The notes below the pieces were generated by a model. The model had not been told where the DNA came from, made no database searches, and was given only the letters and a program-made list of their open reading frames with translations. From NCBI RefSeq assembly GCF_024169245.1, contig NZ_JALJWP010000001.1, forward strand, positions 4,589,501 to 4,653,500: a DNA stretch of 64,000 nt. The letters run 5' to 3'. Every line of letters starts with the position of its first letter. Within the stretch, counting starts at the first letter, position 1. A program made the translations under genes and the position numbers. The DNA comes from Pseudomonas koreensis. GTDB lineage: Bacteria > Pseudomonadota > Gammaproteobacteria > Pseudomonadales > Pseudomonadaceae. This document shows, one piece after another, positions 36,139-61,186 of this stretch.

Positions 36139-36278
36139 CACTACGAGATCCTTTTTGATTGCCACACAAAGCTGCAGGCCGGCAAAACCCTGCTGTCACG
36201 ACATAGGCAGTTGGCAGCAGGCGCGACCGAACGGATGTCACACAAACTTCATGATTGAGGAGTAGATCGGCGAAAAAA

Positions 36279-37771: not shown

Positions 37772-37870
37772 CCTCTTCGCGAGCAAGCTCGCTCCCACAG
37801 GGATTGATGTTGTTAATGCAATTTACTTCACAACACCGAACACTGTGGGAGCGAGCTTGCTCGCGAAGGG
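37772..37870. repeat. REPIN-type inverted repeat
   Basis: CTTCGCGAGCAAGCTCGCTC with CCACAG and the inverse CTGTGGGAGCGAGCTTGCTC with GCGAAG flank a ~40-bp spacer. It lies in the ~470-bp gap between hxcS and the phosphate-binding-protein gene. That gap holds no other gene but must contain the latter's promoter. Confidence 0.9.
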
Positions 37871-37906
37871 GCCGGCCCAAACAGCATCAGTACTTCAGAC
37901 ACACCG

Positions 37907-46136: not shown

Positions 46137-46285
46137 CTCGACATTCCCTGGCTTGACCTGATTTCGACGCGCAGTGTTGCAAGAAGATATGTCAGGGATG
46201 TTGAAAATCCTCGGGTGTTTTAGTCGTCAAGCCGTCAAGGACGGGGGTTAGCGTCGAGGGCTGGGTTTTGGTTTTTGGGCCATGT

Positions 46286-46660
46286 ATGCGCGCGCGAACG
46301 CGAGAGAAAGGATTCACCCTGATTGAAGTGCTGGTGGCACTGGCGATCATCGCCGTCGCCATGTCCGCCGCCGTGCGCGTCGCGGGGTTGATGACGCAGA
46401 GTAATGGGGTGTTGCGGGATAGATCGATCGCGCTGATTGCCGCGCAGAGCCGGATGGCTGAACTACGCCTGGAAGGCCGGTTGCCGAATGGGATGAAGGC
46501 TGTTGAATGTGATCAAGGAAGATTGTTGTTGCGCTGTGAACAGGTGATCGCTACCGCAGAAAATGGACGGCTGCTCAGGATTGGAATCCAAGTATTTGAT
46601 CGCAACCAGGATGCGCCGCCACTCGCAAAACTAGAAACCCTGCTAACCCACCCCCAGTAG
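46286..46660 (+). CDS. hxcV: Type II secretion minor pseudopilin GspI (HxcV)
   Basis: The 124-aa minor pseudopilin has a processing site KG^FTLIEVLVALAIIAVAMS after a short leader (MRARTRE) and a GspI-like body (SIALIAAQSRMAELRLEGRL). The start at 46286 is the first ATG; a TTG frame extends to 46268. Its TAG stop codon lies within a REP element (GTAGGAGCTGCCG), and immediately beyond begins the accessory island. It is divergent from hxcT and on the same strand as hxcU and hxcW 14.5 kb away. Confidence 0.9.
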   Translation: MRARTREKGFTLIEVLVALAIIAVAMSAAVRVAGLMTQSNGVLRDRSIALIAAQSRMAELRLEGRLPNGMKAVECDQGRLLLRCEQVIATAENGRLLRIGIQVFDRNQDAPPLAKLETLLTHPQ

Positions 46661-46745
46661 GAGCTGCCGAAGGCTGCGATCTTTTGATCTTCCCTCCCGC
46701 AACCAACAAAAATCCCCTGTGGGAGCGAGCCTGCTCGCGAAGGCG
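46657..46745. repeat. Two different REP elements at the left edge of the island
   Basis: GTAGGAGCTGCCGAAGGCTG followed by CGATCTTTTGATC starts inside the hxcV stop codon. A second class, CTGTGGGAGCGAGCCTGCTC with GCGAAGGCG, follows at 46717. Both point the same way and lack inverted partners nearby. Confidence 0.85.
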
Positions 46746-47056
46746 CAGTATCAGGCACCGAAATGGTCACATGTGCCTCCGCCAGCCTTACCAGCCAGGT
46801 TCTACAAATCTCAGCGACCATGACGGTCTCCAATCCGGCTTCAAAATCATGCGAAGCGCAGGGAATCGATGGCTGCGATCGACGAAGCTGCACTGGCGTA
46901 GGTCAGTCGACTACCAAAGTCTGCAACCCTGCCTGATAGCAGCTCCCCTTCTCCCCGACAGTTACTGAGCCATAAGCAGACCTTCAAGCCATTGACCATA
47001 TACACTCGCAAAATTGCTCAAAGTCTGATGCAACTGTTCAGGGAGAAAAGGGATTC
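46746..47056. other. Gene-free stretch at the left island edge
   Basis: About 310 bases between the REPs and the first island gene carry no credible reading frame. Frames here are short and lack ribosome sites. The last 20 bases provide the ribosome site (AGGGAGAAAAGGG) of the next gene. Confidence 0.5.
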
Positions 47057-47443
47057 ATGAGTCTTGATCTGCACTTGGAAGCCGATAGCGCGCTCACAAT
47101 CTCAGCGCTGAAAAGCGCCCTTGAGAATGCAGGAGCTCTAGAAATAGATGTAGCGGGTGATGGCTTGTTCGCCATATTTGCCTCGGGACTTAGGGTGAGC
47201 GGCGGCGACGTAACAGATGACTCTACGATCTACGCTGAGAATAAAAAGGGTATCGAGTTTCCTGTCGCTTTGCGTTGCACCATCAGAATAAAAGGGGCTG
47301 ACGCTGAGGGACACTCGCCTATGGAGGATTTGGATAAAATCGCTGAATCAATATCGCAGTCATGTCCCGCCTTCTTTCTAATTAGCTTTCAATTCGAACA
47401 AACCTTGTACTGGCGGGATGCGAAAGGGCTGCATCGACCTTGA
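47057..47443 (+). CDS. Hypothetical island protein (128 aa)
   Basis: The protein begins MSLDLHLEADSALTISALKS and ends FEQTLYWRDAKGLHRP. It looks like a compact soluble alpha/beta protein with no export signal. Short acidic proteins of this sort are often immunity proteins to contact-dependent or type VI toxins, but no toxin gene is next to it and I recognise no family. A purine-rich ribosome site precedes the ATG. It lies 45 bp before another small gene on the same strand and is probably co-transcribed with it. Confidence 0.7.
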   Translation: MSLDLHLEADSALTISALKSALENAGALEIDVAGDGLFAIFASGLRVSGGDVTDDSTIYAENKKGIEFPVALRCTIRIKGADAEGHSPMEDLDKIAESISQSCPAFFLISFQFEQTLYWRDAKGLHRP

Positions 47444-47488
47444 GATCGGTGCCCGCGCGTGCGCCATAAAGGCAGGGGAAAACGAGCT

Positions 47489-47734
47489 ATGAGTATGAAA
47501 CATGAACTTTGGTTGGAACCTGATGGTTGCCAGACTTTCTGCCTGGCCGGAATTCACGGTGATGACGCGCGCAGTCTACTTTCACCAAACTCCCAGCTGA
47601 TCTGGACAGTCGAAGCTGACAGTTACTTCGAGGCGATGACCAAATACTATTCCTTCATGGAGTGGGGTGAATACCGGACAGACTTTCCGGAGCATGATCA
47701 GATGTCCTACGCAGAGCACGGATGGGATGAGTAA
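47489..47734 (+). CDS. Hypothetical island protein (81 aa)
   Basis: The small acidic protein starts MSMKHELWLEPDGCQTFCLA and is rich in aromatic residues (EADSYFEAMTKYYSFMEWGE), ending YAEHGWDE. This composition is reminiscent of small immunity proteins, but the assignment is only by impression. ATGs at 47489 and 47495 are both possible starts. It follows the 128-aa gene and precedes, convergently, the first DUF6124-like gene. Confidence 0.65.
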   Translation: MSMKHELWLEPDGCQTFCLAGIHGDDARSLLSPNSQLIWTVEADSYFEAMTKYYSFMEWGEYRTDFPEHDQMSYAEHGWDE

Positions 47735-47810
47735 CGGGGCCACGAGATAGGATCGCGAAGGCGCCAGCTCTGACGACAAATCACCTATCTGGCGCCCCCG
47801 GTCATTTACC

Positions 47811-48170
47811 TCACCCCGCCACCTCCAAATTATCCATCACCCGATTCACCGCCAGCTCCCCCAACATGATCAGTTGAGCAACCCCCAACAACGCCCGCCG
47901 CTGCGGCGCCGGCAACAGACTGGAAATGTCCTGAGCAATCGTCTTCGCCGAAGCCAGCGTTTCACTCGCATCAGCCAGCAGTTCTTCATTCTTGGTATCC
48001 GCCGTCACCGCATACATCCCACGCGCCTTGCGCGGCGGAGGCAGGAGATTGTTTGGTGATAGGTAATGATCGAGCGCGCGGTCAGCGGCTTCGTGGAGCT
48101 TGTTGGAATCGAGGGATTCGTAGGGAGACGTGGGATCGGTTTCGGGTGGGTTGGGTGTTGGTTTGATCAT
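47811..48170 (-). CDS. DUF6124-like protein, copy 1
   Basis: The 119-aa protein starts MIKPTPNPPETDPTSPYESL and contains LHEAADRALDHYLSPNNLLP and a helical end ALLGVAQLIMLGELAVNRVM. It belongs to a Pseudomonas-restricted family that I recall as DUF6124 (earlier grouped with DUF3077), of unknown function and usually present in several copies per genome. GGAGC lies six bases before the ATG. The gene and about 340 bp upstream are part of a direct repeat; a near-identical copy is at 54262. Confidence 0.82.
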   Translation of the reverse strand: MIKPTPNPPETDPTSPYESLDSNKLHEAADRALDHYLSPNNLLPPPRKARGMYAVTADTKNEELLADASETLASAKTIAQDISSLLPAPQRRALLGVAQLIMLGELAVNRVMDNLEVAG

Positions 48171-48513
48171 GGTGAAGCTCCATTTTTATACCTGGTGGAA
48201 CCACCAAAACCTGTCGCTAAACAAGTAAGGGTGGCAGCTGTGCGCGGGTTAGCGAACCGAGAGGTATAAGACCCGGCAGACCCGAAGGTCTCCCACGCAC
48301 AGCCACCATAGCGTCATCGCAAACGCGACAAACTGGAGCGTCGTTGAACTTATACCTGGTCGAGTCGCTAAACCCGGTCGCTGGATTGCCAGCGGCCCAT
48401 AGACGATATAGACCAGGTACAAAGCCCACAAGCCGGCGGATTCTGGCGTAGCTGTAGGCAAAGGCGCAAGGATATGTAGCCTGAGAGCGTGACTGGAGAT
48501 GTCTTTTTAAACA
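47829..48513. repeat. ~685-bp direct repeat, left copy
   Basis: From ATTATCCATCACCCGATTCA to GGAGATGTCTTT, this stretch is nearly identical to 54280-54966, in the same orientation, with scattered substitutions and a few one- to three-base indels. It carries most of a DUF6124-like gene plus its upstream region. Together the copies bracket the helicase-nuclease gene. Confidence 0.9.
48217..48429 (-). CDS. Conserved 70-codon frame in the direct repeat, copy 1 (uncertain)
   Basis: A minus-strand frame opening with GTG reads VGFVPGLYRLWAAGNPATGF (GTG as Met if used) and ends GSLTRAQLPPLLV. In the second repeat copy the same frame is 71 codons: the differing segment changes by exactly one codon (PVCRVCDD versus PVVADVCDD) through several compensating base changes, which suggests selection on the protein. 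I do not recognise a family and no strong ribosome site is obvious. It could instead be part of a structured leader of the DUF6124-like gene, since ATACCTGG/CCAGGTA inverted segments occur in it. Confidence 0.4.
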   Translation of the reverse strand: MGFVPGLYRLWAAGNPATGFSDSTRYKFNDAPVCRVCDDAMVAVRGRPSGLPGLIPLGSLTRAQLPPLLV

Positions 48514-48677
48514 TCGGGTTTATCTAGACATCGTTGCGCCACGTCTTCCGAATAAAGACATTCCATCCCTGATCTCTTCAGCTGCCATTTATGCGTGATG
48601 ACGAAGGCCGCTCTCGGTTAAAAGCGGCGAGCCTTCGATTCGCCTGGATGGTCCATTTGAAGCTTGAATGGCGACTA
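48514..48677. other. Short non-coding gap between repeat and helicase gene
   Basis: No gene was seen. It lies between the left direct repeat and the 3' end of the helicase-nuclease gene. A 70-codon plus-strand frame at 48591 is unconvincing. Confidence 0.5.
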
Positions 48678-51600
48678 CTAAAGCAAGGGCGAATCAAGAG
48701 TCACCATCCCACCTACCAACTTCAAACGCCCGGTGCTGACCAGAAAAATAATCCTTTGGTCAATCATCCCAGTTATCTTCGTGGTTGCCCGTCCAAAGCC
48801 TAGAAGCGCCAGCGCTCCCGAAATTGCTTCTTCCCGACTCATCGAGAATCCAAGGGTGACCGTATCTACTAGTGCCTGATCAAGTTCTTCCGGGGCGACC
48901 CACTCCACCTTACGTTCCGAAGATTCAAAATGAGCCCGGCTACGGATAGGAATAGACGTGTTTTCAATTGAATATATGAAGCCGCCTCGCCCATGGAATA
49001 ATCGGTGCTGCACGCCAAGTCGAATAGCCTGTTCGACCGCGCTGGTGATCCTCGAGCCTGCCCTTGTCACACCGAATGCATCCATGAGTCGGCGGGTGAC
49101 TTCAGTGGTGTGCACCGGAGATTCGACCTCGACCACAGTACAAATCATCTGCATCAAGTGCTCTGGCTTTTCCTGATGTAGTTCATTCAACGAGGCTACG
49201 GGTGCGAGTCGAGCTTTCACGTATTGCCTAGTTGCGCTTGGCATAGTTTCAACGGCCGGGACGTCCCGGAAGATCTCATGCTTCGGTTCTGGCACCACTT
49301 GGGGAAGCGCTTGCCGCCCCTCAGCGATTTTGGCACGAGCCGCTTCGATCGCTGCGACGACACGTATGATTTCCTGCTGAGGATTGCGAAACCAATCCGT
49401 GCTCCAAATCCTGTGAAAATTCCAGCCCAGCCCCTCCAGCACACCTTGGCGCAGGCGATCACGATCACGCGCTGATCGTGAGCTGTGATAAGCGGCTCCA
49501 TCACATTCGATCGCCAGGACATACCGCCCCGGATACTCGGGATCCTTAACGGCAATATCGATGAAGTAACCTGCGGTTCCTACTTGAGGCTCCACCACAT
49601 AGTCTCGGTCTCGCAGCGCCTCGATCACTTCCAGCTCGAATGGTGAGTCCGCTGCTTTACCGGTCTCGCATGCGACTTCGAGTTCGCCCGTCTCAGCATA
49701 TTTCAGGAAATTCTTCAGCGCCCTGACGCCTTGCGGCGCGTTGGAGTCGAGTTCAAGCTCTTCGGCCTTGAAGTTGCTGAATACGCGCATAGCCAATTTG
49801 GCCCGGGTGATCAGAACGTTGAGACGGCGATGGCCGCCTTCGCGGTTTACCGGACCAAATTCCTTAGCAATGCGGCCGGACTCGTTACGCCCGTAGCCGA
49901 TGCTGATAAATATCTTGTCACGCTCATCGCCCTGTATGTTCTCGAGGTTTTTGACGAAAAATGGCTCACTTCCTTGGGCGGTAAAGAACGCTTCCGCTTC
50001 CGGGGTTTGACGACGCAATAATTCGATTTCCACCTGAATCAGATCACGCTGCGCAACGCTGAAGGCAGCTACTCCCAGCGATAAATCGGGCGTGCGAATC
50101 GCGTGTTCCATAACCGCGTTCGCGACAGCCTTGGCTTCCCCCTTGTTCGTGCGGGTACGACCCCGGTCATAGATTGCATCGGGCAGGTAGTCAAAGCTGA
50201 TGCCCGTTGCGTCAGGATGTTGTCCCGCCGATGGGAAAACCACCAATTTGCTGTCGTAAAACTCGACATTAGAGACCGCGATCAACGACTCGTGTCGGCT
50301 CCTATAGTGCCAGCGTAAATAGCGCTCCTGGCTACCGGCGGCCTTGAACATGCTCAGGATACTTTCAACGTCGGCAGTGGCGCCCTCCTCGTCTTCCATC
50401 TCGACCTCTCGACTGAAGAAGTCGGTAGGTGGCATCTGGCGGGTGTCCCCCACAACCACGACTTGCTTGCCGCGCATGATTGCACCAAATGCGTCGACTG
50501 CTTTCACTTGGGAGGCTTCGTCGAATACCACCACGTCGAACTCGACTTTGCCCGGTGGGAGGAAGTTGGCGATCGACATGGGGCTCATCATGAACACCGG
50601 TTTAATTTGCTGGATCGCTCGCCCCGCTTTCTCGATCATCTGCCGAATGGGCATATGGCGGCGCTTCTTGTTAAGCTCTCCTCGCAGCACAGCCATCTCG
50701 CCGGGCTGGTTGATATTGGGCATTTCCTCCCACGCCTGCTTAGCGAGGGAGGTCTGAGCGTGATTGAGGGAGGCAAGATCAAGCGACTTGAAACGCGCGA
50801 TCTGGTGCTCGTGCTTGATTCTGTCGAACTGCTGGAGCGCCGGATTATGGGCGTAAACCGATTGGACCAGGCCTGCGTACCAAGAGAGATCCAGAATAGC
50901 GGTGAGGTTTTCGTGCTGGTCGCTCTTGATGGCGATGCTAAGCAGCTCGCCCAGATTGGCAGTGAGCATCTGGCCCGCGAGCACGTTGAATCGCGACATT
51001 TGATAGAGCGCGGTGAGGTTGCTCTGCCATTCCTGCAGACGCGCCTCCAGTGTAGCCAGAGAGAGTTTTCTCACATCAGCTTTAGCGTTCTCCTCCTGCA
51101 GGCCAGTAACTTCCAGCGAATCACGAATCGCTTTGTCCAGCCCGCTGACATGCTGCTCTACATCAGCTACTGCATCGCCCAATCCCGTGGCATCGGCGTG
51201 ACCGGCCAAGAAGGCAATGATGCCCTGAGGAATCTGTCCCTGCCCCAAGTCGTCATGCAGCTGAATCACCCAAGCACTTAAGCGCTCAAGCACAAGCCAA
51301 TCGGTCTTCTGGCGTTGCCACTGGGCGCCAAAAAGCGCACCACCCAAGCCTTCGTGCTGGTCGTAAATCTTCTTGTTTTGTTGATAGGTCAAGACCGCAT
51401 CAACCAGCTCCAGCATGCCTGCGTTGCTTTTCGGCAATACCTCGCGGACAAGTCCCTGTAATCGGGTACGCGACGCTCGGAAGCGCCCCGAAAAAACTCT
51501 CCACCATTTCTCACCGTAAGCTTGCAGGCTCTGGCGGACCTCCAGAAGATCTTGTTCCCAAGCCGCATCGATCAACTGTTTGTCGAACTGATCGCGACAG

Positions 51601-53459
51601 GCAGACATCTTCTCGCCCGACTCGAGCAATTCATGAATGGAATCGCGACGCGACTGCCACTCCCCCGTGGAAATTTTGATGCCCTCAAGTCGCGGAGCTT
51701 CCGCCGCCCGGCGCGCGGCTCGGCAGATAACATCAACGTCTGCCAAAGTAGCCGGCTCGGTTAGCATCAATCGCTCGGACAGCGCGCTAGTCGCGGATTG
51801 CAAGGCATGGAGGTGAGAGATCGCCAACTGCAAAGCATCATTGGCATTGCTTTGTTCGATCGGAGAGAAAAAAGTCCGCTGGCTGCCCCAGAACGGGCTG
51901 CGATCCGGTCGCCCCATTACGTTGAGATGTAGCACTAGTTCTTCGACCAACTCTCGCAGCTTTCGCTGTTGGATGAAGGTCCAGCCGGACATTGGCCCAA
52001 ACGGGATCAAAGGAAGCCCCGGATAAACTCGCTTCAACTTTAGGTAACGACCAAGCGCATCGAGAAAGGGCAAGCCACTCGCCCCGGCCGAAGCGCTGAC
52101 GGCTTCGCAATATTTATTAAGGGAATCCTGCAGCTCTTTCAGACTTGCGAGATCTCCTTCTACGCCTTTGGTCATTGGCCGCCCTTGGCTAAGGGTTCGC
52201 CCCAACTCCTTGAGTACAGACTGTTTGGTGGATTTGTGGGAATGCAGCTCAAGTACCGCGTCGCCGAGATGGCTCTCATCCAGGCGGCGCTTCACCACCT
52301 CCAAGGCCGCCATCTTCTCGGCCACGAACAGTACCTTTTTCTTCTGACCAATCAGCTCGGCGATGATGTTGGTAATTGTCTGGGACTTGCCGGTACCGGG
52401 TGGCCCCTGGATCACTAGGTTGGAGCCTTCGCGTACTTCCAGGATCGCTTCGGTCTGGCTGCTATCGGCGTCCTTCACGAAACGGACTTCACCCGGACTG
52501 ATCACCGAGTCGATATTCAAGTCCTCGGGATAGGCCGCGCGCAGATCGCCGAATCCCGCGCCCAGCAAGCGCTTCATTACCGGGTTGGCATCGGGTTGTT
52601 TGTCTTCTGGCCAGCTTTTCGGATCGAGATCTTTGAACATCAGGAACTTGCCGAACGAGAAAAAGCCCAGTGCAATCTCGTTGCTGGCAACCTTCCATCG
52701 CGATTGTTTACTGACTACAGCAGCAACATCGCTAAAAAAACGTTCCAGACTTTCGTCGTCCGTATCGAAGGTTTCCTCGTCGACCGCACAAGAACTCAGA
52801 TCTAGCCCAAAGTCGGTCTTGAGCTTGGCGACCAGAGATAAGTTCGGCATCAGCTCGTCACCGGAGTACCTCAGTTTGAACGCATCTTTGGCCCCACTGC
52901 GTTCGAGGCTGACGGGTAGCAAGATCAGAGGCGCCTTCCGCAGGTTCTCAGAGCTGTCAGCCTCGTACCAATGCAGGAAACCAAGGGACAGGAACAGCGT
53001 ATTGACGCCCTGCTCTTCGATAAAGCCTTTGGCCTCGGTATGGATTTTCAGTAACTGGAGGAAAAGCCGATCATCTTCGATGGTGGTCTGCAAGCGCGTA
53101 TCGAGGTGACGTCGAGGCTTGCCAGTTTCAATCTCGCCTGCGTCGCCAGCAGCGGTATCCCAGTCCAGGCTATCGAGCTCATACAACAACTCTTCATCGC
53201 CGGGGCTATCGCTAGCATCCTCCCCCTCCTCGACCGACTTGGAGGTCTTCACCAACTCCGCCAGCGCTTTGCGAGCCATCGGCGCAAAAGTCATGGCTTT
53301 GTCCTGGCGATAAAGGATCTTGAAAACCTCTTCGGACCGCTCGTCGACCACCATAAGGGTCTTGGCGGTCTTGCGGAAATTGAGCATGTTGTTGCGAAGC
53401 CCGATATCCAGAAGCTCTTTGCGACTGCTCTGTAGCTTCTGGCCGATCACTGCACTCAT
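48678..53459 (-). CDS. DUF4011-type superfamily 1 helicase fused to a PD-(D/E)XK-like nuclease; candidate single-gene defence protein
   Basis: The 1593-aa protein has four parts. An N-terminal DUF4011-like segment (SSRKELLDIGLRNNMLNF, residues 11-28) is followed by a superfamily 1 helicase split around a long helical insertion: Walker A GPPGTGKSQTITNIIAELI at 352, Walker B VVFDEASQ near 978, VVGDTRQMPPT, and NVLITRAKL near 1215. Next comes a nuclease domain near 1290-1390 (GTAGYFIDIAV, AIECDGAAYHSS, WNFHRIWSTDWF), which fits a Vsr/MTES_1575 endonuclease. The C-terminus resembles DUF3320. From memory, this architecture is the single-protein antiphage system called Hhe by Gao and colleagues (2020). 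It is monocistronic and flanked by direct repeats. Confidence 0.85.
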   Translation of the reverse strand: MSAVIGQKLQSSRKELLDIGLRNNMLNFRKTAKTLMVVDERSEEVFKILYRQDKAMTFAPMARKALAELVKTSKSVEEGEDASDSPGDEELLYELDSLDWDTAAGDAGEIETGKPRRHLDTRLQTTIEDDRLFLQLLKIHTEAKGFIEEQGVNTLFLSLGFLHWYEADSSENLRKAPLILLPVSLERSGAKDAFKLRYSGDELMPNLSLVAKLKTDFGLDLSSCAVDEETFDTDDESLERFFSDVAAVVSKQSRWKVASNEIALGFFSFGKFLMFKDLDPKSWPEDKQPDANPVMKRLLGAGFGDLRAAYPEDLNIDSVISPGEVRFVKDADSSQTEAILEVREGSNLVIQGPPGTGKSQTITNIIAELIGQKKKVLFVAEKMAALEVVKRRLDESHLGDAVLELHSHKSTKQSVLKELGRTLSQGRPMTKGVEGDLASLKELQDSLNKYCEAVSASAGASGLPFLDALGRYLKLKRVYPGLPLIPFGPMSGWTFIQQRKLRELVEELVLHLNVMGRPDRSPFWGSQRTFFSPIEQSNANDALQLAISHLHALQSATSALSERLMLTEPATLADVDVICRAARRAAEAPRLEGIKISTGEWQSRRDSIHELLESGEKMSACRDQFDKQLIDAAWEQDLLEVRQSLQAYGEKWWRVFSGRFRASRTRLQGLVREVLPKSNAGMLELVDAVLTYQQNKKIYDQHEGLGGALFGAQWQRQKTDWLVLERLSAWVIQLHDDLGQGQIPQGIIAFLAGHADATGLGDAVADVEQHVSGLDKAIRDSLEVTGLQEENAKADVRKLSLATLEARLQEWQSNLTALYQMSRFNVLAGQMLTANLGELLSIAIKSDQHENLTAILDLSWYAGLVQSVYAHNPALQQFDRIKHEHQIARFKSLDLASLNHAQTSLAKQAWEEMPNINQPGEMAVLRGELNKKRRHMPIRQMIEKAGRAIQQIKPVFMMSPMSIANFLPPGKVEFDVVVFDEASQVKAVDAFGAIMRGKQVVVVGDTRQMPPTDFFSREVEMEDEEGATADVESILSMFKAAGSQERYLRWHYRSRHESLIAVSNVEFYDSKLVVFPSAGQHPDATGISFDYLPDAIYDRGRTRTNKGEAKAVANAVMEHAIRTPDLSLGVAAFSVAQRDLIQVEIELLRRQTPEAEAFFTAQGSEPFFVKNLENIQGDERDKIFISIGYGRNESGRIAKEFGPVNREGGHRRLNVLITRAKLAMRVFSNFKAEELELDSNAPQGVRALKNFLKYAETGELEVACETGKAADSPFELEVIEALRDRDYVVEPQVGTAGYFIDIAVKDPEYPGRYVLAIECDGAAYHSSRSARDRDRLRQGVLEGLGWNFHRIWSTDWFRNPQQEIIRVVAAIEAARAKIAEGRQALPQVVPEPKHEIFRDVPAVETMPSATRQYVKARLAPVASLNELHQEKPEHLMQMICTVVEVESPVHTTEVTRRLMDAFGVTRAGSRITSAVEQAIRLGVQHRLFHGRGGFIYSIENTSIPIRSRAHFESSERKVEWVAPEELDQALVDTVTLGFSMSREEAISGALALLGFGRATTKITGMIDQRIIFLVSTGRLKLVGGMVTLDSPLL

Positions 53460-54261
53460 AAGGAACCCTGCTATCTGAATTTACAAATCGACGGCTTCGA
53501 TCGTGTCCACCGCTTGGGAGAAACCCAGTGAAAAGCGGCCGAAATATGACCTAAGCGGGGACAACTCATCGGATATAAAGATTGCTGAGCTTAGCTTGCT
53601 AAGCTGACAAGGATCAGGGAAAGGAATGCAGGCGGGTGAGCCGGTCGAGTAATCACTCTTGAGCGCCTTTCCTTGGAAGTCGAATACTTAATATCCTTTT
53701 GCCAGCAACATATCCGCAGCATGAATATTGGTAAAGAAATAAGTGATCCCCAGTCATCGCCTTTAGCTTGGTGCAGATGCTTCGAGATCACCCGATCACT
53801 TAATTCGTAGAGGGACGAGTGATGAGGGAGTCGTTCTGCGGGGCAGGTAAGTAGACTTGATTCAGCGACCAAGCGTAACGGCTAGAAGGAGAAGGAGGAG
53901 TTTGCGAAGTAGATCGTTAAAGGGGGCGGAGATCTTACGCCGTTCGGCCAATTCCATTTATTTAGAAATCCTTGCCGCCAGCACGCTAAATGAGTCTAAC
54001 CCACTCGAAACGGGCTGCTGGCTCCCCCAACATAGTGGGCAAGCGCAGCCCCACCGGTTCAGCTTAGGGCTGAATACTAGTGCTGATTTAGAGCCTCGAA
54101 TCAATAGTTATTTTGGACGGATCGAAGCCGAGAACGACCGCTTATTGCAGATGAAAAAACGCGATCAAGGGAACTGATTTATTTCCGAGCAAAATAATCA
54201 GTCCCCGCAAAATTGCCAAGGGGCTCTCCCCCCGCAAACCGTTCGGATGTCGTGACCCGCA
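53460..54261. other. Gene-poor 800 bp upstream of the helicase gene
   Basis: No confident gene is present. A plus-strand frame at 53857-54177 ends INSYFGRIEAENDRLLQMKK RDQGN, which looks protein-like and stops exactly within an imperfect inverted repeat (54169-54206), so it may be the 3' remnant of a lost gene. A minus frame at 53591-53872 has no ribosome site. The helicase promoter must lie within the first few hundred bases. Confidence 0.5.
54169..54206. repeat. Imperfect inverted repeat GGG(A)ACTGATT(T)ATT
   Basis: The arms GGGAACTGATTTATT and AATAATCAGTCCCC are separated by nine bases. Similar GGGGACxGATTTATT palindromes often follow REP-associated transposase-type or other orphan genes in gamma-proteobacteria, as I recall. 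It sits about 75 bp outside the right direct repeat and could be a terminator or a scar. Confidence 0.5.
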
Positions 54262-54621
54262 TTAGCCCGGCATTTCGAGATTATCCATCACCCGATTCAC
54301 CGCCAGCTCCCCCAGCATGATCAGTTGAGCGACCCCCAACAACGCCCGCCGTTGCGGCGCCGACAACAGACTGGAAATGTCCTGAGCAATCGTCTTCGCC
54401 GAAGCAAGGGTTTCACTCGCATCAGCCAGCAATTCTTCATTCTTGGTATCCGCCGTCACCGCATACATCCCACGCGCCTTACGCGGCGGAGGCAGGAGAT
54501 TGTTGGGCGACAGGTAATGATCGAGCGCGCGGTCAGCGGCTTCGTGGAGTTTGTTGGAATCGAGGGATTCGTAGGGAGATGTGGGATCGGTTTCGGGCGG
54601 GTTGGGTGTTGGTTTGATCAT
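54262..54621 (-). CDS. DUF6124-like protein, copy 2
   Basis: The 119-aa protein is nearly identical to the product of the copy at 47811: the differences seen are SSLLPAPQ to SSLLSAPQ and the C-terminus NLEVAG to NLEMPG. The start at 54621 follows GGAGC by six bases, as in copy 1; an in-frame extension to 54657 is an artefact of a frame open through the leader. The function is unknown. That both copies stay intact suggests recent duplication or continued selection. Confidence 0.82.
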   Translation of the reverse strand: MIKPTPNPPETDPTSPYESLDSNKLHEAADRALDHYLSPNNLLPPPRKARGMYAVTADTKNEELLADASETLASAKTIAQDISSLLSAPQRRALLGVAQLIMLGELAVNRVMDNLEMPG

Positions 54622-54966
54622 GGTGAAGCTCCATTTTATACCTGGTGGAACCACCAAAACCTGTCGCTAAACAAGTAAGGGTGGCAGCTGTGCGCGGGTT
54701 AGCGAACCGAGAGGTATAAGACCCGGCAGACCCGAAGGTCTCCCACGCACAGCCACCATAGCGTCATCGCAAACATCTGCGACAACTGGAGCGTCGTTGA
54801 ACTTATACCTGGTCGGGTCGCTAAACCCGGTCGCTGGATTGCCAGCGACCCATAGACGATATAGACCAGGTACAAAGCCCACAAGCCGGCGGATTCTGGC
54901 TTAGCTGTAGGCAAAGGCGCAAGGACATGTACCCTGGGAGCGTGACCGGAGATGTCTTTCTAAACA
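54280..54966. repeat. ~687-bp direct repeat, right copy
   Basis: This is the partner of 47829-48513. The identical order of gene, leader and conserved 70-codon frame shows that a single unit was duplicated, or that two modules bearing it were joined. Homologous recombination between the copies would delete the 6.5-kb helicase segment. Confidence 0.9.
54667..54882 (-). CDS. Conserved 71-codon frame in the direct repeat, copy 2 (uncertain)
   Basis: This is the counterpart of 48217-48429, differing by a few residues (YRLWVAGNP, FSDPTRYKF) and one extra codon (PVVADVCDDAMVA). The preserved frame across an indel-bearing segment is the main support for coding. It lies upstream of, and on the same strand as, the DUF6124-like gene, so it may be a leader peptide or an overlapping part of a structured RNA. 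Confidence 0.4.
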   Translation of the reverse strand: MGFVPGLYRLWVAGNPATGFSDPTRYKFNDAPVVADVCDDAMVAVRGRPSGLPGLIPLGSLTRAQLPPLLV

Positions 54967-55299
54967 AGGATGTTTAACGAAACGTCATCCGTCTCGAACC
55001 TTAGCGAAATACGTGCTCTAGTCACGCGCTTAAAATATGCACCCTTCCTCCTAACCATTGATTTAAAACAACAGATTTAGCAAATCTGGTCGCCATCGTA
55101 CGATAGTCATTGGTGACGTCCCTCCTGATTTCGGTCATTTCCAGCTATTGGTGCCCGCCAGAAACGTACCTTGGGGTTAGGAGTCAGTCCGATCACCCGG
55201 AAAATTTCCTGCCTACCCAAAACGCTAAGGGTTGTTTATTGACATAACCACTAATGCTGCTTAGCTATTGAATAATCCGCGTCTAATCAGGGGATAACC
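54967..55299. other. AT-rich gap with probable promoter for the DUF6119-like gene
   Basis: No gene was seen. Base composition falls sharply here, marking the start of AT-rich foreign DNA. TTGACA at 55239-55244 is a good -35 box; a matching -10 is unclear (TAGCTA after 17 bases). The next gene's ribosome site is GGGGATAACC. Confidence 0.45.
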
Positions 55300-57033
55300 A
55301 TGGCCGACCAAGGAGTTGAAATCGCCCAAATATCATTTTTTCTCTCAAGAGAAGAAAGAAAAGTCGACTCTATACTCGACAAAAAAAAAGATGTTTTAAA
55401 AAACTCATCTGCGCGAGAATTCATGTTTTCGGTCAATGAAACAGATTGTCACTTCATTTATTTTGAGACAACGAGCGCAAAATCAAATCCGCCCTGGTTG
55501 AACTTCATCAATGAAAAACTTCCATCGGTAGCAGCACCTCTCTTCAGCTCGAAAACCAAAAACCCAAATGGAATTTTATTTTTAACCGTCAACGAAAGGG
55601 TGTTTGCTGCGACCTTTGGCCGCAGTGCCGCAAGCTATCTAGATCGAAGTGCTTTCGAGCCGGATTTTGGAATAAAAACAGCTATGAACATGTGCGGCAA
55701 CGAAGAAATACGTCAGACAAAAAGCGAGAGCCACGCAATTACCCCTACACACATCGACAGACAAGTAAACAAGCCGATTGACTCTTTCGCTTTCGGCCTT
55801 AGCGAAGCGGAGGACCTTAGGTATATATCGGCTCACATGAAAGACCACAGAAATATAACTCTACAAGGTCGCAATAACTTAACAATAAAAATCATTGGAC
55901 AAGATAAGCTGAATTGGCAGCTATTGATTGGCTATTGCGAAGATTTTTTAGTTGCCTATGCAAGCAAGGATTACACCAAGCTTTTCCCAAACTACAAGCA
56001 TTTTGACGAAGCAACGGAGTCAGAAAGCACAACACTAGATGAGCACCTGCTCACTCACCTTCGATCAAAAAACACAAGCAGTATTAGTCTAGGGATTCCC
56101 GAAGTACTAATTGATCCGGATTACGGATTCTCATATTCAAATAACAAACGGTCCGGCGATAGGACTTATGCATACCTAGACATCTGCCAACTATTCGACC
56201 ACATGAAGGCTGAAAAAATAACATCCACATCATTGAAATCAAAACATATTTATGCGTATTCCCATGAAGAAAACCAAGTGCTAGGCTACAAGAAATGGCC
56301 GATTTACAACTGCATATCTTTTGAACAAGCTTTGGGAGATAAATACTTTGTATTAAGCGACGGGAGATGGTTGGAAGTAGACAACGACTTTTACACCGAG
56401 ATCACAAACTTCACTAAAGCCACACTGCACGAAGAGGCCTGCGAAGAGATATATAGACATATCGATATCAGTGACGATATAAAAATGCAAAACAGAGAGA
56501 GCATTTTTAATAAAAAAATATGTGAGATCCGCCCTTCGTGCGTTTTGTTTGACCAAGCGAAGCTTCAGATCGGATCCGGTCGCAAAGACAAAGAATTTTG
56601 TGACATTTTAGATCTCACGGACGATAATAAGATGAGAATCATTCATTGCAAACCATACAAAAACTCCTCATCAACAAACTATTTGTTCTCACAAGCTCAA
56701 TTCTACTGCCATGCATTCATTAATGACCAAATTTTTCTCGACGAAATCAGGCGCCACACAAGTTTGTCTGTTAGCACACGAAAACTAGAATACCTAGAGT
56801 ACATAAAATCCAATATTGCGGACATCCATGGTAAAGACTACATTGTGTGCCTATGGCTGCTATGCGATCAGCGCGTACCGACGCCAATTAAAACTGACAT
56901 ACCATTGATGGCTCAGTATGAATTAAAATTGATGCACGAACATTTGCGAAACGCATGCAAATTTCAGGATGTAATAATACGATTCATCCCCACCATTAAG
57001 AAGAATTATATCAGAGATATTTCCCACTTATGA
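55300..57033 (+). CDS. DUF6119 / TIGR04141-like sporadically distributed protein
   Basis: The 577-aa protein is AT-rich in its codons, unlike the rest of the window. It matches what I recall of the sporadically distributed TIGR04141/DUF6119 family: the segment ATFGRSAASYLDRSAFEPDF plus GIKTAMN corresponds to the family's FGxGRxLL...EPDFGLxxALN motif, and EFCDILDLTDDNKMRIIHCK PYKNSSSTNYLFSQ to its late core with the conserved lysine and a serine-rich loop. No signal peptide or membrane segment is seen. The biochemical role is unknown; the patchy distribution fits defence islands. It converges with the KAP NTPase gene 240 bp away. Confidence 0.8.
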   Translation: MADQGVEIAQISFFLSREERKVDSILDKKKDVLKNSSAREFMFSVNETDCHFIYFETTSAKSNPPWLNFINEKLPSVAAPLFSSKTKNPNGILFLTVNERVFAATFGRSAASYLDRSAFEPDFGIKTAMNMCGNEEIRQTKSESHAITPTHIDRQVNKPIDSFAFGLSEAEDLRYISAHMKDHRNITLQGRNNLTIKIIGQDKLNWQLLIGYCEDFLVAYASKDYTKLFPNYKHFDEATESESTTLDEHLLTHLRSKNTSSISLGIPEVLIDPDYGFSYSNNKRSGDRTYAYLDICQLFDHMKAEKITSTSLKSKHIYAYSHEENQVLGYKKWPIYNCISFEQALGDKYFVLSDGRWLEVDNDFYTEITNFTKATLHEEACEEIYRHIDISDDIKMQNRESIFNKKICEIRPSCVLFDQAKLQIGSGRKDKEFCDILDLTDDNKMRIIHCKPYKNSSSTNYLFSQAQFYCHAFINDQIFLDEIRRHTSLSVSTRKLEYLEYIKSNIADIHGKDYIVCLWLLCDQRVPTPIKTDIPLMAQYELKLMHEHLRNACKFQDVIIRFIPTIKKNYIRDISHL

Positions 57034-57273
57034 ATCATCGCAGACTGATCGAATAAGAAAATAAATCAATGCCAGATTTTATTAGGATTTCATCAATCGA
57101 AGATCACCTAAGTGGATCCATGCCAGCCACCGACTGATGTGACGAATAATATGTGAAACCAACGAAACTGATTCACTTCTCAGGAAACAGATGCATTATC
57201 GAGCACTTAAAGATCCTCTTCAGACAAGTCAACGCTAGTGCATTAAATATTGGGCTGAGCTATCTACCACATC

Positions 57274-60210
57274 TTAGACGACAGGTTTTTCGGCGAACTC
57301 GTCCAACACAGAAAAAACTCCATCCAAGTCTTCTCTATAGGACGCAGTGTAGGTAGATGTGAACACAAATCGACTTTCGACCTCTTCAATTTTTTTACGG
57401 ATAAGGTCTCGATACTGAAGCCAGTATTGGCGCATTGATTTCGGATCAAACCCAGCTAAGAGTCCTTCTTGCGTAGCAACATATCCCGCTTCATCCGAAC
57501 CAGTGAAGAAGGAATTACTCAAATTAGCTAAGCAGTGATCGATAAAATGGAAAATGTTATCTTCGTGAACATCCGGATTGAAGCAAAATTCAAATACGTA
57601 TTTATTCATCAAGCTCGCAATGCCCGCGGTATCCTTTTTGCCAACCATATCGTAATAACCGCACCCTACCCCCCTACCGTGAGGAAGCGCTGAATTAATA
57701 AGTTGGTAGATTACAAACGACTTCAAATCGCAACGCGCCGACAATACCCTTCTACTGAGTGAATCTTCACCTGAGGAACTAGCCGCATCACTAATTGATT
57801 GAGCTTCACCGAGGAAATCTTCAAAGCGAGTATTGTCGACTGCTGCGAAAAAATTTTCTTTTGCATCAATGTAGTTGGTTTTAAATAGAGCAAAAACTTC
57901 TTGAGAGAGCTTTCTCATGCCCATTAGTGCAAGTTTCTCAACCGAACCGTTTGTAGGCGCACCTGGATCCTGATTTGTTATTAGAGCTGCGTGAAGATTA
58001 TATACCTGTCCCTGTCGATCAGCGCAGCACTGAAGCCTGAACAACATCAAGTCATTCCATCCTAAAACCCCACGACTGCCGCCAACAAGTTGCTTTAACA
58101 AGCCATTGCACACATAAGTTTGCTCACCAAAAATTCTCCATGCAATTTCAACGATATTTTCCGGGGAATTATCTGTCCTCTTTCCAACTGTCTGCCCCCA
58201 CCCCGCCCGGTCTAAAAGCCTAATTAAAGAGTAAACAGATCTTTGCCGCAAACCTATATCTTTGTATCCCACTGTAGAGTATTTAGGCAAGTAGCTGACA
58301 AGAGTATTAAATGCATCCTCTGCGACAGCCGGGGCGATGTCATAAGCTTTATTTACAAATATTCGCCAGAACTGATCATGTGAGTATTGCCCATGTTCTA
58401 GCCGAAAGTGCTGGGACATTAGAACCGAATCTATCGCCGTTCCCTTGCGAACCTGCTCAACCGCATTATGATACAGAACATATGTCTTCTGCGGCTCTGG
58501 CGTGGCGAATCTCACGATGAGCTTCAGGTAGTTCTCTAGATTTCTGAAAGATTCCTGATTGAAGCAAGCACGCGTCGCTAACACCGACTCTTCTACCTCT
58601 CCACGGGCGGGGAGATTAAGTGTCTCCACATCAAAAAGTTGTTTTAATAAAAATTTAGCTGGTTCTGGTTGTCCATCCAGCTCTTTTGAAAACTCAGCTG
58701 AGTTACTGTAGTCAGGCTGCGCATAGATACGACGAAGCGAGAAAAATCCGGCCCGCCCCTCCGTTTCCCCAGCGTAAATACGCCTGAACAACCCAGGGTA
58801 ACTCAAATGTAGCAATATAAGATTAATAAGGTCACGCTTATTAAAGTCTGTCCGAGCCAAATCACTGCGTTCGAGCTGCATGAGTAACATGGCATTCACG
58901 AAACGTTTTATTTTCCGAAGATTTCCAACAAGAGGGAGATAACTAGCAGCATGATCGCCATTAAGAATGCTTGCCAGCTCAATGAGAATTGCCCCTAACT
59001 TCACCATCGTATCAGAAGGGATCGAACCCAGTTGCTTAGTCTCACGCTGCCAGTCCCTTAGTAAGAAGTCCCGAATTCCGGAACTATCGACAAATAAACT
59101 GATCTTCACCGTTACGAATTTCTCTAGAAACTCGCGGGCTCTTGAATCCTCTTCATGATTGCCGGCAAGTATCTCCGTATCGTAACAAAGCACATAAGTC
59201 GCCTGCGATAGCTTGAAGGTACGTCGCGTTGCAAAAAGAACCGAATTTATCGTTTTAGTGTCTAGACGATCAAGGTCATCAATGACAATTATCACCCGAC
59301 GATCAATACGCCTGAGAACCTCATCAACATCATCCAGGAGCTCATCTACGGTTTCCTGAGACGGTTCCAGCGACAACTTAAAACCGAGAAAAGAAATATC
59401 TGCTTTTCCTTTTATTAGTCGCGAGTATCGGGAAGCGGCGGGCCGAAATTCGGGGGCGAATACCTCACGCTGGATTGCAGCTGATAAATCCCTTATCAAG
59501 CGTTCTGCAAGATCTGGCTCTGAGGCGTAACGAAGAGGTTCAAAACGAACAACAATTGCCTTGTCAACAGCATTTTCCCAATGTCGCTCTGCCAGGTTTA
59601 TAAAGCTTGTCTTACCGACTCCCCATGGTCCATCGACTCCGAAAACAAGTCCGGCGTGGGCACCACTTGCGAGCACCGTTTCAGCGAACGACTTAGCCTG
59701 GGTTTCGCTTAAAAGCACGTCCTCGCTTTTGTCAAATATTTCTTCATCCGCAATAAAATAAAGTTGCGGAATCGTTTTCTTAGTTCTAGGCCAGTACTGT
59801 TGTATCAAGGGCGAAATCAGCACCGTACAGAGTAGAACAAGCAACGCTGGTGTCCAATATGGATCCACAGCGCTTAATATCATATGAAACTTTAATAGCA
59901 ACGGGGATATGAGCTCGTTGACCCAGATGCCGACACCGACTGCTATTAATAAATCGACTCGAAAGCTACGAACCATTTTTGCACTCTCGATAAATGCCCC
60001 CCGTGTTAAAGCGTATGAAAAACAAAGCACCAGCACGATTAAAAGAATATGTAATTGCACAACAAGGCCTACATCCCACAACAGCGGAGCAAAGTTTTCT
60101 CCAAGACAGGATGCAACTCTCCATACTTCTGCAGCAACAAACCCTAAAACGAGCGCTCTGAAGAAGACAAGAAACTCAGGCATTTTCATCTTTGGCTTTA
60201 CATTTGCCAT
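57274..60210 (-). CDS. KAP-family P-loop NTPase with N-terminal membrane segments
   Basis: The 978-aa protein has four hydrophobic segments in the first 140 residues (about 13-32, 43-68, 85-105 and 119-138). A KAP-type STAND-like NTPase domain follows: Walker A GVDGPWGVGKTSF at 191-203, and Walker B RVIIVIDDLDRLD at 305-317 with the DDLDRL signature. The remaining ~600 residues are helical and unassigned. KAP NTPases are membrane-associated and include the phage-exclusion protein PifA; many lie in defence islands. The gene is AT-rich and monocistronic. A membrane-bound sensor/effector role is inferred, not shown. Confidence 0.85.
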   Translation of the reverse strand: MANVKPKMKMPEFLVFFRALVLGFVAAEVWRVASCLGENFAPLLWDVGLVVQLHILLIVLVLCFSYALTRGAFIESAKMVRSFRVDLLIAVGVGIWVNELISPLLLKFHMILSAVDPYWTPALLVLLCTVLISPLIQQYWPRTKKTIPQLYFIADEEIFDKSEDVLLSETQAKSFAETVLASGAHAGLVFGVDGPWGVGKTSFINLAERHWENAVDKAIVVRFEPLRYASEPDLAERLIRDLSAAIQREVFAPEFRPAASRYSRLIKGKADISFLGFKLSLEPSQETVDELLDDVDEVLRRIDRRVIIVIDDLDRLDTKTINSVLFATRRTFKLSQATYVLCYDTEILAGNHEEDSRAREFLEKFVTVKISLFVDSSGIRDFLLRDWQRETKQLGSIPSDTMVKLGAILIELASILNGDHAASYLPLVGNLRKIKRFVNAMLLMQLERSDLARTDFNKRDLINLILLHLSYPGLFRRIYAGETEGRAGFFSLRRIYAQPDYSNSAEFSKELDGQPEPAKFLLKQLFDVETLNLPARGEVEESVLATRACFNQESFRNLENYLKLIVRFATPEPQKTYVLYHNAVEQVRKGTAIDSVLMSQHFRLEHGQYSHDQFWRIFVNKAYDIAPAVAEDAFNTLVSYLPKYSTVGYKDIGLRQRSVYSLIRLLDRAGWGQTVGKRTDNSPENIVEIAWRIFGEQTYVCNGLLKQLVGGSRGVLGWNDLMLFRLQCCADRQGQVYNLHAALITNQDPGAPTNGSVEKLALMGMRKLSQEVFALFKTNYIDAKENFFAAVDNTRFEDFLGEAQSISDAASSSGEDSLSRRVLSARCDLKSFVIYQLINSALPHGRGVGCGYYDMVGKKDTAGIASLMNKYVFEFCFNPDVHEDNIFHFIDHCLANLSNSFFTGSDEAGYVATQEGLLAGFDPKSMRQYWLQYRDLIRKKIEEVESRFVFTSTYTASYREDLDGVFSVLDEFAEKPVV

Positions 60211-60637
60211 TTGCCCCCCCTATTGCGCGATTAACAGTCTATTTCTTAACTCAAAAAAACTAACAGAACTGATATTTTCAATACTCTCCCTCATCAACAT
60301 CAACATCAACAACCCATGTGCACACTCCCCCACCAACAGACTGAAGCTTAAAAAATGATAAATAACATCACCCACAAACAACAAATCCAGCCCTAAACAT
60401 ATATAACAAAATACCCCCTACGCAAGAGATATCTAGGAGGTTGCTAGTACGATTCGTTTACGAAAAGACTAGTTGATATTTGAGTCTCTGCCACATACCG
60501 AAAACTGGCGGTATGTGAAGGGCAGGTTTTGACCGAAGACAACCACAAACACCCCTTGCTTGTTCGTTCTCTCTTGCAGAAGCACTTTGACCTGACATCC
60601 GATCAAAGTGAAAAAACAACCAGCTTCAACCTGCAGA
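60211..60637. other. Gene-free right edge of the island
   Basis: The first half is very AT-rich and should hold the KAP gene promoter. A hairpin with arms CACATACCG and CGGTATGTG (60492-60517) lies in the second half. Composition returns to high GC near 60620, marking the boundary with hxcP. No integrase, att-like repeat or transposase remnant was seen. Confidence 0.5.
60492..60517. repeat. Perfect 9-bp hairpin at the right island edge
   Basis: CACATACCG and CGGTATGTG are separated by AAAACTGG. Without a U tract it is not a convincing terminator; it may be an operator or a mobile-element scar. Confidence 0.5.
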
Positions 60638-61066: not shown

Positions 61067-61186
61067 GGGTTGTCGCTCCTTGTTGTCCCTGTTGCCAGCC
61101 TACGCGGCAATTCTCTCCGTTTTATTTCACACGCCTTACATGTTGGCCGTGCACGATGGCGCAGGACGCAAAGGAGCGCGCGCGCG

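Follow-up and report, generated by a model that had tools for sequence, protein, structure and literature searches.

C4 antisense RNA-DUF6124 units recur in a variable interval between hxcV and hxcP, a candidate turnover hotspot of defence genes in Pseudomonas

The window, a stretch of 64,000 nucleotides of Pseudomonas koreensis DNA, carries an hxc type II secretion locus that is interrupted between hxcV and hxcP. These two genes are convergent and lie 13,983 bp apart, in agreement with the earlier note, which described an accessory island splitting the locus. The other components were located where they had been placed before, with GspF, E, D, L, G, M, and K at 37.9–46.1 kb, and GspC, H, and J at 60.6–62.2 kb. 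All three proteins of the right block scored above the Pfam cut-offs and below the NCBIfam cut-offs (GspC 16.8/101.6, GspH 78.9/80, and GspJ 50.5/64.9 bits). The GC content, determined in 500-bp steps, was 0.39–0.57 within the interval, compared to 0.58–0.67 in the hxc genes. The secretion genes had been described as intact; they are open in the window, whereas stops were found in hxcP of the close relatives G034 and G098. The dispersed repeats at the end of hxcV are presumably REP sequences.

The helicase-nuclease, DUF6119, and KAP NTPase genes of the interval were identified by Pfam as previously described. The small genes, formerly listed as orphans, include two DUF6124 genes, each inside a direct repeat of ~700 bp. 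The two repeats (47811–48513 and 54262–54970) surround the helicase-nuclease gene and contain blocks of 94, 96, and 100% identity. Each repeat is a unit with the order a1b1–C4 RNA–leader–DUF6124 ORF on one strand. Both C4 RNAs cover positions 1–87 of the RF01695 model, which has a gathering score of 45. The fold of the C4 RNA of unit 1 has a z of −5.1 and places the variable a′ segment in the loop of a hairpin, and the a2 site of this unit directly precedes a Shine-Dalgarno-like GGAG. The DUF6119 gene together with unit 2 is common to locus L010 (93.7% identity over 54255–57049), and the segment 57167–61500, which contains the KAP NTPase gene, is common to L014 (89%). The interval does not resemble an integrase-driven island, because a Pfam scan of seven interval proteins of the window detected no transposase or integrase, and the direct repeats consist of entire gene units. 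Phage or satellite core genes were likewise not recognized among these seven proteins.

Table 1. Features of the hxcV–hxcP interval and its edges (window coordinates).
Feature	Position	Strand	Basis
hxcV (GspI pseudopilin), left interval edge	46268..46660	+	NCBIfam TIGR01707, 74 bits vs cut-off 44
REP-like dispersed repeats, abutting/overlapping the hxcV stop codon	46650..46760		86 further matches in the same genome
~1-kb insert relative to L010	46747..47752		blastn; both flanks adjoin in L010
Orphan ORFs in the ~1-kb insert	47057–47443, 47489–47734		Neither with a Pfam match
C4-DUF6124 unit 1, specificity type A	47811..48514	-	Pfam, Rfam, direct repeat
DUF6124 gene of unit 1 (119 aa)	47811..48170	-	PF19619, 65.7 bits
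Leader of unit 1, b2 + a2 complementary to C4 loop	48171..48226	-	Sequence; pairing from row L011 3691
C4 antisense RNA of unit 1	48227..48313	-	RF01695, 78.2 bits, full length
a1, b1 target of C4, unit 1	48357..48409	-	RF03163, 31.5 bits, below gathering score 46.7
Promoter-like TTGCGC-18-CAGAAT, unit 1	48440..48469	-	Motif seen by eye in most units of this genome
Helicase-nuclease (DUF4011, SF1 helicase, MTES_1575 REase, DUF3320)	48678..53459	-	Pfam; PADLOC candidate PDC-S37 2030 bits, Hhe 794 bits
C4-DUF6124 unit 2, specificity type A	54262..54970	-	Pfam, Rfam, direct repeat
DUF6124 gene of unit 2 (119 aa)	54262..54621	-	PF19619, 66.2 bits
C4 antisense RNA of unit 2	54677..54763	-	RF01695, 78.2 bits
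a1, b1 target of C4, unit 2	54810..54862	-	RF03163, 47.3 bits, above gathering score
DUF6119 gene	55300..57033	+	PF19614, 318 bits
KAP-family NTPase	57274..60210	-	PF07693, 194 bits; PADLOC PifA 104 bits, QatA 36 bits
hxcP (GspC), right interval edge	60638..61066	-	Pfam PF11356 (T2SSC), 29.7 bits vs cut-off 27; synteny
hxcU (GspH) + hxcW (GspJ)	61160..62238	+	Pfam; hxcU start not fixed

The earlier note proposed aligning this interval across Pseudomonas genomes. Among 80 other hxcV loci, the hxcV–hxcP gap was tight (7–218 bp) in 43 and longer, with differing cargo, in 36; the remaining locus (L102), with hxcV at a contig end, was undecidable and left out of the tally. Of the 36 occupied loci, 30 were assigned to this state on the grounds that the visible 3.9–10 kb contained no hxcP. 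In the tree, the occupied loci group with the window in a single clade (SH-aLRT 99), and the occupied label requires a single change. This fits one opening of the site followed by cargo turnover rather than a series of integrations into an intact site. The opening thus probably happened a single time, in a lineage to which P. koreensis belongs, and the cargo has been exchanged since then. In eight strains, an occupied hxc copy exists alongside a tight one. The proposed integration hotspot thus stands as a hotspot, but one of turnover after a single opening. The earlier note also held that genes shared by nearly all relatives would make the island ancestral; within the occupied clade, the insertion is ancestral, whereas its content is not.

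When ORFs of 150 aa or more were counted, the cargo of the occupied loci amounted to 321 ORFs, which fell into 179 clusters (125 singletons); islands other than that of the window, including the most basal occupied loci, were only partly annotated. Of 133 cargo representatives of at least 220 aa, 105 were kept and 28 dropped. Many cargo ORFs resemble anti-phage systems, with labels taken from family models only, and we regard them as candidate defence genes. The hxcV–hxcP interval shares with defence hotspots constant flanking core genes, a known empty site, and variable cargo.

Not everything between hxcV and hxcP is accessory, as had been assumed: the cargo varies, but C4-DUF6124 units recur, with a C4 RNA in 34 of the 36 occupied loci of the main set of 80 as well as in the window. 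All 16 occupied loci from further genomes likewise had a C4 RNA on the piece that bears hxcV; six of these repeat main-set assemblies and were left out of the unit tree and junction counts. No unit was detected in L059 (10.0 kb visible) or L078 (3.9 kb visible), and no C4 RNA on the hxcP-bearing contig pieces of G016 and G047 (L021 and L025). The genome of the window contains 31 C4 RNAs, several of which are paired 4–6 kb apart. A DUF6124 gene lies behind 28 of them, one fragmentary row below the cut-off being left out of this count. Across the genus, C4 RNA occurred in 137 of 149 genomes, with up to 42 copies per genome. This abundance and the pairing could suggest that the units themselves move as mobile elements and bring cargo with them. 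We consider this very improbable and rejected it, because all 15 matches covering nearly the whole of unit A (at least 80% identity, 19 genomes) were located in hxcV–hxcP intervals, with two 121-bp partial matches elsewhere. Moreover, the hxc units are separated in the unit tree from the remaining units of this genome, and the seven scanned interval proteins include no transposase or integrase.

The C4 loops are hypervariable, yet complementary to the leader of their own unit. The analysis was based on 111 units, retained after removal of C4 matches too near a locus end, and on 38 of 39 distinct loops, one lacking the GGT anchor being dropped. The mean Watson-Crick run between a′ and a2 was 6.97 for the own leader and 4.56 for swapped pairs (z 14.7). 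The b′/b2, b′/b1, and a′/a1 pairings also exceeded swapped pairs (z 12.5, 10.9, and 9.6, respectively), so the loop segments match their own a and b sites as is characteristic of the C4 family. The type A loop (row L011 3691) forms 9, 8, 7, and 7 consecutive pairs with a1, a2, b1, and b2, respectively. Only 23 of the 38 loops reach at least 7 pairs at a2, and 4.2% of the cross pairs in the genome of the window reach 7 base pairs at this site. RNAduplex over long segments was uninformative for C4-leader pairing, and Watson-Crick runs with swapped pairs were used instead. We infer from this arrangement that one promoter would transcribe a1b1, the C4 RNA, b2a2, and DUF6124. The a′ loop and b′ segment would then pair with a2 and b2 at the ribosome-binding region and repress the unit's own DUF6124 gene, and would also pair with a1 and b1 upstream. 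Given the differing a′ and b′ sequences, each RNA would lock its own gene and not those of its neighbours.

C4 antisense RNA is a phage and satellite RNA; the c4 RNA of P1 and P7 represses by pairing, and P4 has the CI RNA. The chromosomal C4 RNAs could accordingly be captured phage immunity that silences incoming phages or satellites of the same a1b1/a2b2 specificity. Similar stretches were found in 33 Pseudomonas phage records (84–85% identity over ~90–100 bp in the two best listed), and some C4 RNAs of the genus, elsewhere than in the hxc interval, precede a Bro-N antirepressor-like ORF. In a sample of 20 C4 loci from other genomes, mainly top-scoring and phage-like, only six had DUF6124 behind the C4 RNA according to our own profile. 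However, when IMG/VR was searched with the exact type A, B, and C target patterns, 77 stretches matched (12, 63, and 2, respectively), none of which had a C4 RNA or DUF6124 by our own profiles. Direct matching phage immunity is therefore unsupported for these types. Furthermore, DUF6124 was present in one of 50,697 phage records, at the record end, and absent from all 72,556 plasmid records. The interval also differs from a P1 immI-type immunity region, since the target ORF is DUF6124, the location is chromosomal, and no phage gene was recognized among the seven proteins. Overall, captured phage immunity appears unlikely. Slightly less likely still is a founding event by a P4-like satellite or prophage with a decayed core, of which the C4 RNA and cargo were left. 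Satellites do carry defence hotspots, as described in the part of PMC9122126 considered here, but no core gene was recognized among the seven proteins of the window interval, and no PHROG matched DUF6124 better than E 0.22.

The DUF6124 gene is under purifying selection (median dN/dS 0.20 for 78 ORFs of exactly 119 aa, other lengths being dropped). Comparison with solved structures revealed no clear relative (best E 0.22). Of the options for its function, an effector that must stay locked, as in addiction, was judged the most likely, though still doubtful in itself. C4 RNA and DUF6124 are each known families, and the literature searched contained no description of the two together.

Within the same island, units of different type (24 pairs) were 94% identical in the DUF6124 ORF and 66% in the RNA, whereas units of the same type from different genomes (500 pairs) were 96% identical in the RNA and 89% in the ORF. 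These values refer to 62 units, after those without a clear ORF or promoter motif were dropped. The surroundings of the units could be explained if the convergent gene ends, with REP-like repeats at the edge, were merely a harmless landing place, the units conserved residents with an unrelated job, and the cargo moved by any route. Residents kept by selection amid moving cargo would also show non-homologous flanks. However, at an equal median core identity of 93%, both flanks were kept in 78 of 179 cargo-ORF pairs but in only 9 of 504 same-type unit pairs, and homology was absent on both sides in 17 and 369 pairs, respectively, the pairs of loci not being independent. One-sided flank homology is partly hxcV itself, and short stretches beside hxcV may be REP-like repeats; the matches of window unit 1 towards hxcV (~430 bp), for example, are hxcV and its repeats and not the unit's own flank. 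The hxcV-nearest unit is of type A, B, C, or D depending on the species. For 16 such units, the unit-to-hxcV stretch showed homology in 10 of 29 pairs of the same type and in 26 of 91 pairs of different types, indicating that unit type and flank vary independently. In addition, unit 1 of the window has a type A RNA, but the block that includes its 3′ flank (47753–47810) aligns with D units of L010 and L049 and a B unit of L050. The helicase-nuclease gene lies between two type-A units in the window, whereas in L010 another gene lies between a type-D and a type-A unit. A tolerated landing place with unrelated residents therefore seems possible but rather improbable.

We consider it probable, with some reservation, that the interval is a turnover hotspot of candidate defence genes, opened once between the convergent hxcV and hxcP, in which retained, antisense-locked C4-DUF6124 units serve as exchange pegs. 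The units are homology junctions in a mosaic arrangement. Their near-identical DUF6124 genes and promoter parts would supply homology inside an otherwise non-homologous region, and recombination, either of incoming hxc-locus DNA with resident units or between units, would swap the cassette between two units. A broader proposal is only tentative: essentially the same DUF6124 protein may be held under dozens of orthogonal C4 locks per cell across the genus, with specificities resembling old trans-species alleles and with gene and promoter homogenized within each genome. In this proposal, the units would establish and maintain defence hotspots by acting both as exchange pegs and as addiction modules, with anti-phage cassettes swapped between them. 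DUF6124, an uncharacterized family, gains a likely regulator and a context, and the dozens of matched antisense-target pairs per genome offer a natural set for measuring the divergence and insulation of RNA specificity.

P2/P4 elements use C4-type RNA. The antiviral hotspots of P2/P4, in the part of PMC9122126 considered, likewise carry defence cargo; unlike these, the proteins scanned in the hxc interval include none of a phage or satellite core. The window gene at 48678–53459 resembles the Hhe/PDC-S37 helicase-nuclease of PADLOC, and its anti-phage role is that of a candidate. Modular defence hotspots similar to the hxc interval are known in the genus from Pseudomonas genomic islands (PMC12629846), in the main text of which hxc, DUF6124, antisense, and fluorescens do not occur. 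The hotspots cDHS1 and cDHS2 of P. aeruginosa, as presented in the passages of PMC10250203 considered, are bounded by conserved core genes, contain highly variable defence cargo, and have a lower GC content. They are not obviously one mobile element, and homologous recombination via the conserved flanks is one route named. The hxc interval shares these features but has other flanking genes and repeated internal antisense units, which those passages do not name for cDHS; nor does hxc occur in the main text. Its authors name the construction and regulation of core defence hotspots as an open question, and the hxc hotspot offers pegs within the interval that are defined by sequence, an opening whose place on a tree can be given, and an exchange rule that lends itself to testing. 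According to the same paper, cDHS1 contains symE, a type I toxin-antitoxin module in which, likewise within a defence hotspot, an antisense RNA covers the 5′ region of a small ORF; in contrast, C4 and its target ORF share one strand, and DUF6124 is not a known toxin. A close likeness is to RF01695/RF03163 (P1/P7 c4 and P4 CI RNA), with a full-length match, the same order of a1b1, C4, leader, and ORF, and a loop complementary to sites before the ORF. Unlike the phage C4 systems, the units described here are chromosomal, reach 42 copies per genome, mostly precede DUF6124 (28 of 31 in this genome), and have many specificities within one genome.

The earlier note had placed a ~14-kb accessory interval between hxcV and hxcP, with hxc genes on both sides, and the interval was confirmed: 13,983 bp of lower GC separate the two genes in the window. 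The genes of both hxc blocks have open frames and match their families; hxcP, hxcU and hxcW score above the Pfam and below the NCBIfam cut-offs. The note had also proposed comparing the interval across Pseudomonas as a check for an integration hotspot. We searched 149 genomes of the same genus with hxcV and hxcP; a second set, in which each locus was classified, consisted of 80 hxcV loci, the 80 best of 166 relatives found. The interval was short (tight) in 43/80 loci, with hxcP 7–218 bp behind hxcV, and occupied by differing cargo in 36/80, of which 6 were measured at 6.8–9.6 kb and 30 were so classed because hxcP lies beyond the 3.9–10 kb visible; one locus was undecidable. Occupied intervals measured in the 149-genome set spanned 7.1–18.4 kb. 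The site is therefore a hotspot of variable cargo. In a DNA tree of hxcT and hxcV, a single branch (SH-aLRT 99) separates all 43 tight loci from the window and its 36 occupied counterparts, and eight strains carry both an occupied and a tight hxc copy. Changes on this unrooted tree cannot separate gain from loss, and gain of the island is the natural reading of the split because tight loci are widely spread. In the close relatives L010 and L011 (genomes G034 and G098), hxcP contains in-frame stops; therefore, some strains are losing the right-hand side of the split locus to decay.

Positions of features in the window, in other loci (L-numbers) and in their genomes (G-numbers)
Feature	Location	Position	Remark
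Left hxc block	window	37.9–46.7 kb	
Right hxc block (hxcP, hxcU, hxcW)	window	60.6–62.2 kb	
Open reading frame	window	23665–36165	4166 aa; adjoins DING-like gene
DING-like phosphate-binding protein gene	window	36330–37880	PBP_like_2
DUF4011-helicase-MTES_1575 nuclease gene	window, inside interval		PADLOC candidate PDC-S37, 2030 bits
DUF6119 gene, KAP NTPase gene, two orphan ORFs	window, inside interval		
Similar REP-like half-sites	window	46735–46746 / 47753–47764	flank ~1-kb insert
Block matching L010	window	47811–48513	unit A of L010
Block common to L010	window	54255–57049	unit 2 and DUF6119
Block common to L014	window	57167–61500	KAP to hxc
Second hxcV 3'-end fragment	L027 (G029)	5929611–5929712	within occupied interval; 65% identity, 34 residues
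sRNA P10 (RF01668) copy	L013	11898–11969	within hxc island
sRNA P10 (RF01668) copy	L027	6217–6288	within hxc island
C4 RNA, Bro-N antirepressor-like ORF behind	L135 (G005)	2.52 Mb	
C4 RNA, Bro-N antirepressor-like ORF behind	L146 (G011 contig 4)	1.39 Mb	similar by eye
Paired C4-DUF6124 units	L029–L032 (own genome)	2.93, 3.04, 4.15, 4.42 Mb	~900–1400 aa proteins between or beside

The cargo of the occupied islands differs from locus to locus: ORFs of 150 aa or more numbered 321 across 53 loci, in which six assemblies are represented twice, and fell into 179 clusters, 125 of them singletons. Among 105 cargo representatives, Pfam matches comprised AAA_15 (10), SIR2_2 (4), KAP (3), and GmrSD, ABC-3C CTD1 and reverse transcriptase (2 each). 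PADLOC models for AriA (8), PtuA (5) and GajA (4), which are overlapping ATPase models, matched the same set; "defence" is here a label taken from family matches. Single scans added RES-domain protein, Beta protein, LemA and DEAD-box helicase genes. The ~1-kb insert of the window, recognized relative to L010, holds the two orphan ORFs, and its REP-like half-sites suggest insertion or deletion via these repeats.

The constant part of the islands is a small repeated unit. The window interval holds two almost identical direct repeats of ~700 bp, each a full unit of a1b1 target, C4 antisense RNA and DUF6124 gene. The C4 RNA matches RF01695 with 78.2 bits in both, and a1b1 of unit 1 scores under the gathering score. 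In the computed fold (z -5.1), the variable a' segment lies in a hairpin loop. C4 units stood downstream of hxcV in 34 of the 36 occupied loci, with none seen in the stretch visible of L059 and L078, and on the hxcV-bearing piece in all 16 occupied loci from the 149-genome set. Specificity types recur across species; type A mostly follows C or D and is itself followed by B, an order from which L013 departs (B ahead of A). Types A–D all face hxcV; E and F have the opposite orientation and adjoin hxcV in some loci. In the unit tree, the 74 hxc units split into one clade of 65, another of 8 and the single row L076, which branches outside the group formed by the 65 and eight other units of the window's own genome. 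Near-full-length matches to unit A (at least 80% identity) in 19 genomes lay only inside hxcV–hxcP intervals (15/15).

In phages P1 and P7, c4 represses by pairing ahead of an ORF. Over a set of 38 distinct C4 loops, we scored segments a' and b' by longest Watson-Crick run against the leader of their own unit and those of other units. Mean runs were 6.97 (own) versus 4.56 (swapped) for a'/a2 (z 14.7) and 7.13 versus 4.93 for b'/b2 (z 12.5), and the upstream a1 and b1 sites behaved alike (z 9.6 and 10.9). Runs of at least 7 at a2 occurred in 23/38 own pairs compared to 4.8% of swapped pairs, and within the own genome alone in 16/26 compared to 4.2% of cross pairs. In several types, the Shine-Dalgarno-like sequence itself falls within a2. 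Because own-leader complementarity exceeds swapped complementarity, a P1/P7-type circuit with many specificities is predicted to be present in one cell, and each C4 RNA would repress its own DUF6124 gene.

The DUF6124 gene is much the same in units that differ in their RNA. Different types within one island shared 94% median identity in the DUF6124 ORF and 95% in the promoter stretch, but 66% in the RNA stretch (24 pairs). Between genomes, units of the same type shared 96% (RNA), 97% (promoter) and 89% (ORF; 500 pairs), and those of different type 66% (RNA) and 88% (ORF; 300 sampled pairs). The ORF is shared somewhat more within an island than within a type, whereas the RNA follows type. Within-island sharing could come from gene conversion or from selection for a single protein in each strain, and the RNA specificities look like old alleles maintained across species. 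Purifying selection acts on DUF6124 (median dN/dS 0.20; 0/2474 pairs above 1).

Homology between islands tends to break at the units. We compared 700-bp flanks of 504 same-type unit pairs from different loci with those of 179 shared cargo-ORF pairs; median identity was equal (93%), and pairs are not independent. Flank homology was found on neither side, one side and both sides in 369, 126 and 9 of the 504 unit pairs, compared to 17, 84 and 78 of the 179 cargo-ORF pairs; some one-sided unit cases arise because hxcV itself falls inside the 700-bp flank, an effect that runs against the contrast. The 16 units nearest hxcV were of types C (6), D (5), B (3) and A (2). Their stretch up to hxcV was homologous in 10/29 same-type and 26/91 different-type pairs; therefore, the flank of a unit varies independently of its type. 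In the window, most blocks shared with relatives stop ~60 bp or less from a unit edge, the exception being the L014 block, whose ends are not near one. The RNA stretch of unit 1 is 95–100% identical to type A of L010 and 53–75% to type D, and is thus type A, whereas the block across the unit's 3' flank matches type-D units in L010 and L049. Between the units, L010 (D–A) holds a protein with weak HEAT-repeat matches, under the Pfam cut-off, and the window (A–A) the helicase-nuclease. Exchange between units would predict such a mosaic, both of unit 1 and of the cassette between units. Alternatively, units might be kept by selection while the surrounding cargo changes. We regard this as rather unlikely, but give it weight because the pairs are not independent and selection on units would mimic part of the junction pattern.

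C4 RNAs extend well beyond the hxc locus. The own genome carries 31, of which 28 are immediately followed by a DUF6124 gene and one precedes DUF3077; conversely, 28 of its 32 DUF6124 places have a C4 RNA. The large proteins at L029–L032 have long stretches in common, and the one copy scanned was without a Pfam match. At least one C4 RNA occurred in 137/149 genus genomes, in a search that counted at most 27 per genome. A 24-genome search found it in 15/16 genus members (at most 42 copies in one genome) and in 2/8 outside (one copy each), and 14 control genomes had none. Among 20 C4 loci from other genomes, mainly top-scoring, 6 had DUF6124 behind C4; in others, C4 precedes either short phage-like ORFs or an ORF like a Bro-N antirepressor. 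At L135, by a scan of the ORF, and at L146, by eye, the order is the classical phage arrangement. Related C4 stretches are present in Pseudomonas phages, and none of the viral contigs with exact type A, B or C targets had a C4 RNA.

In the literature searched, we found no description of C4 paired with DUF6124, of many C4 specificities in one genome, or of a hotspot framed internally by repeated antisense units. What we describe is a combination, not found described, of known kinds: the RNA of every unit belongs to RF01695, and the hxcV–hxcP locus is a hotspot of the same kind as the core defence hotspots (cDHS) of P. aeruginosa.
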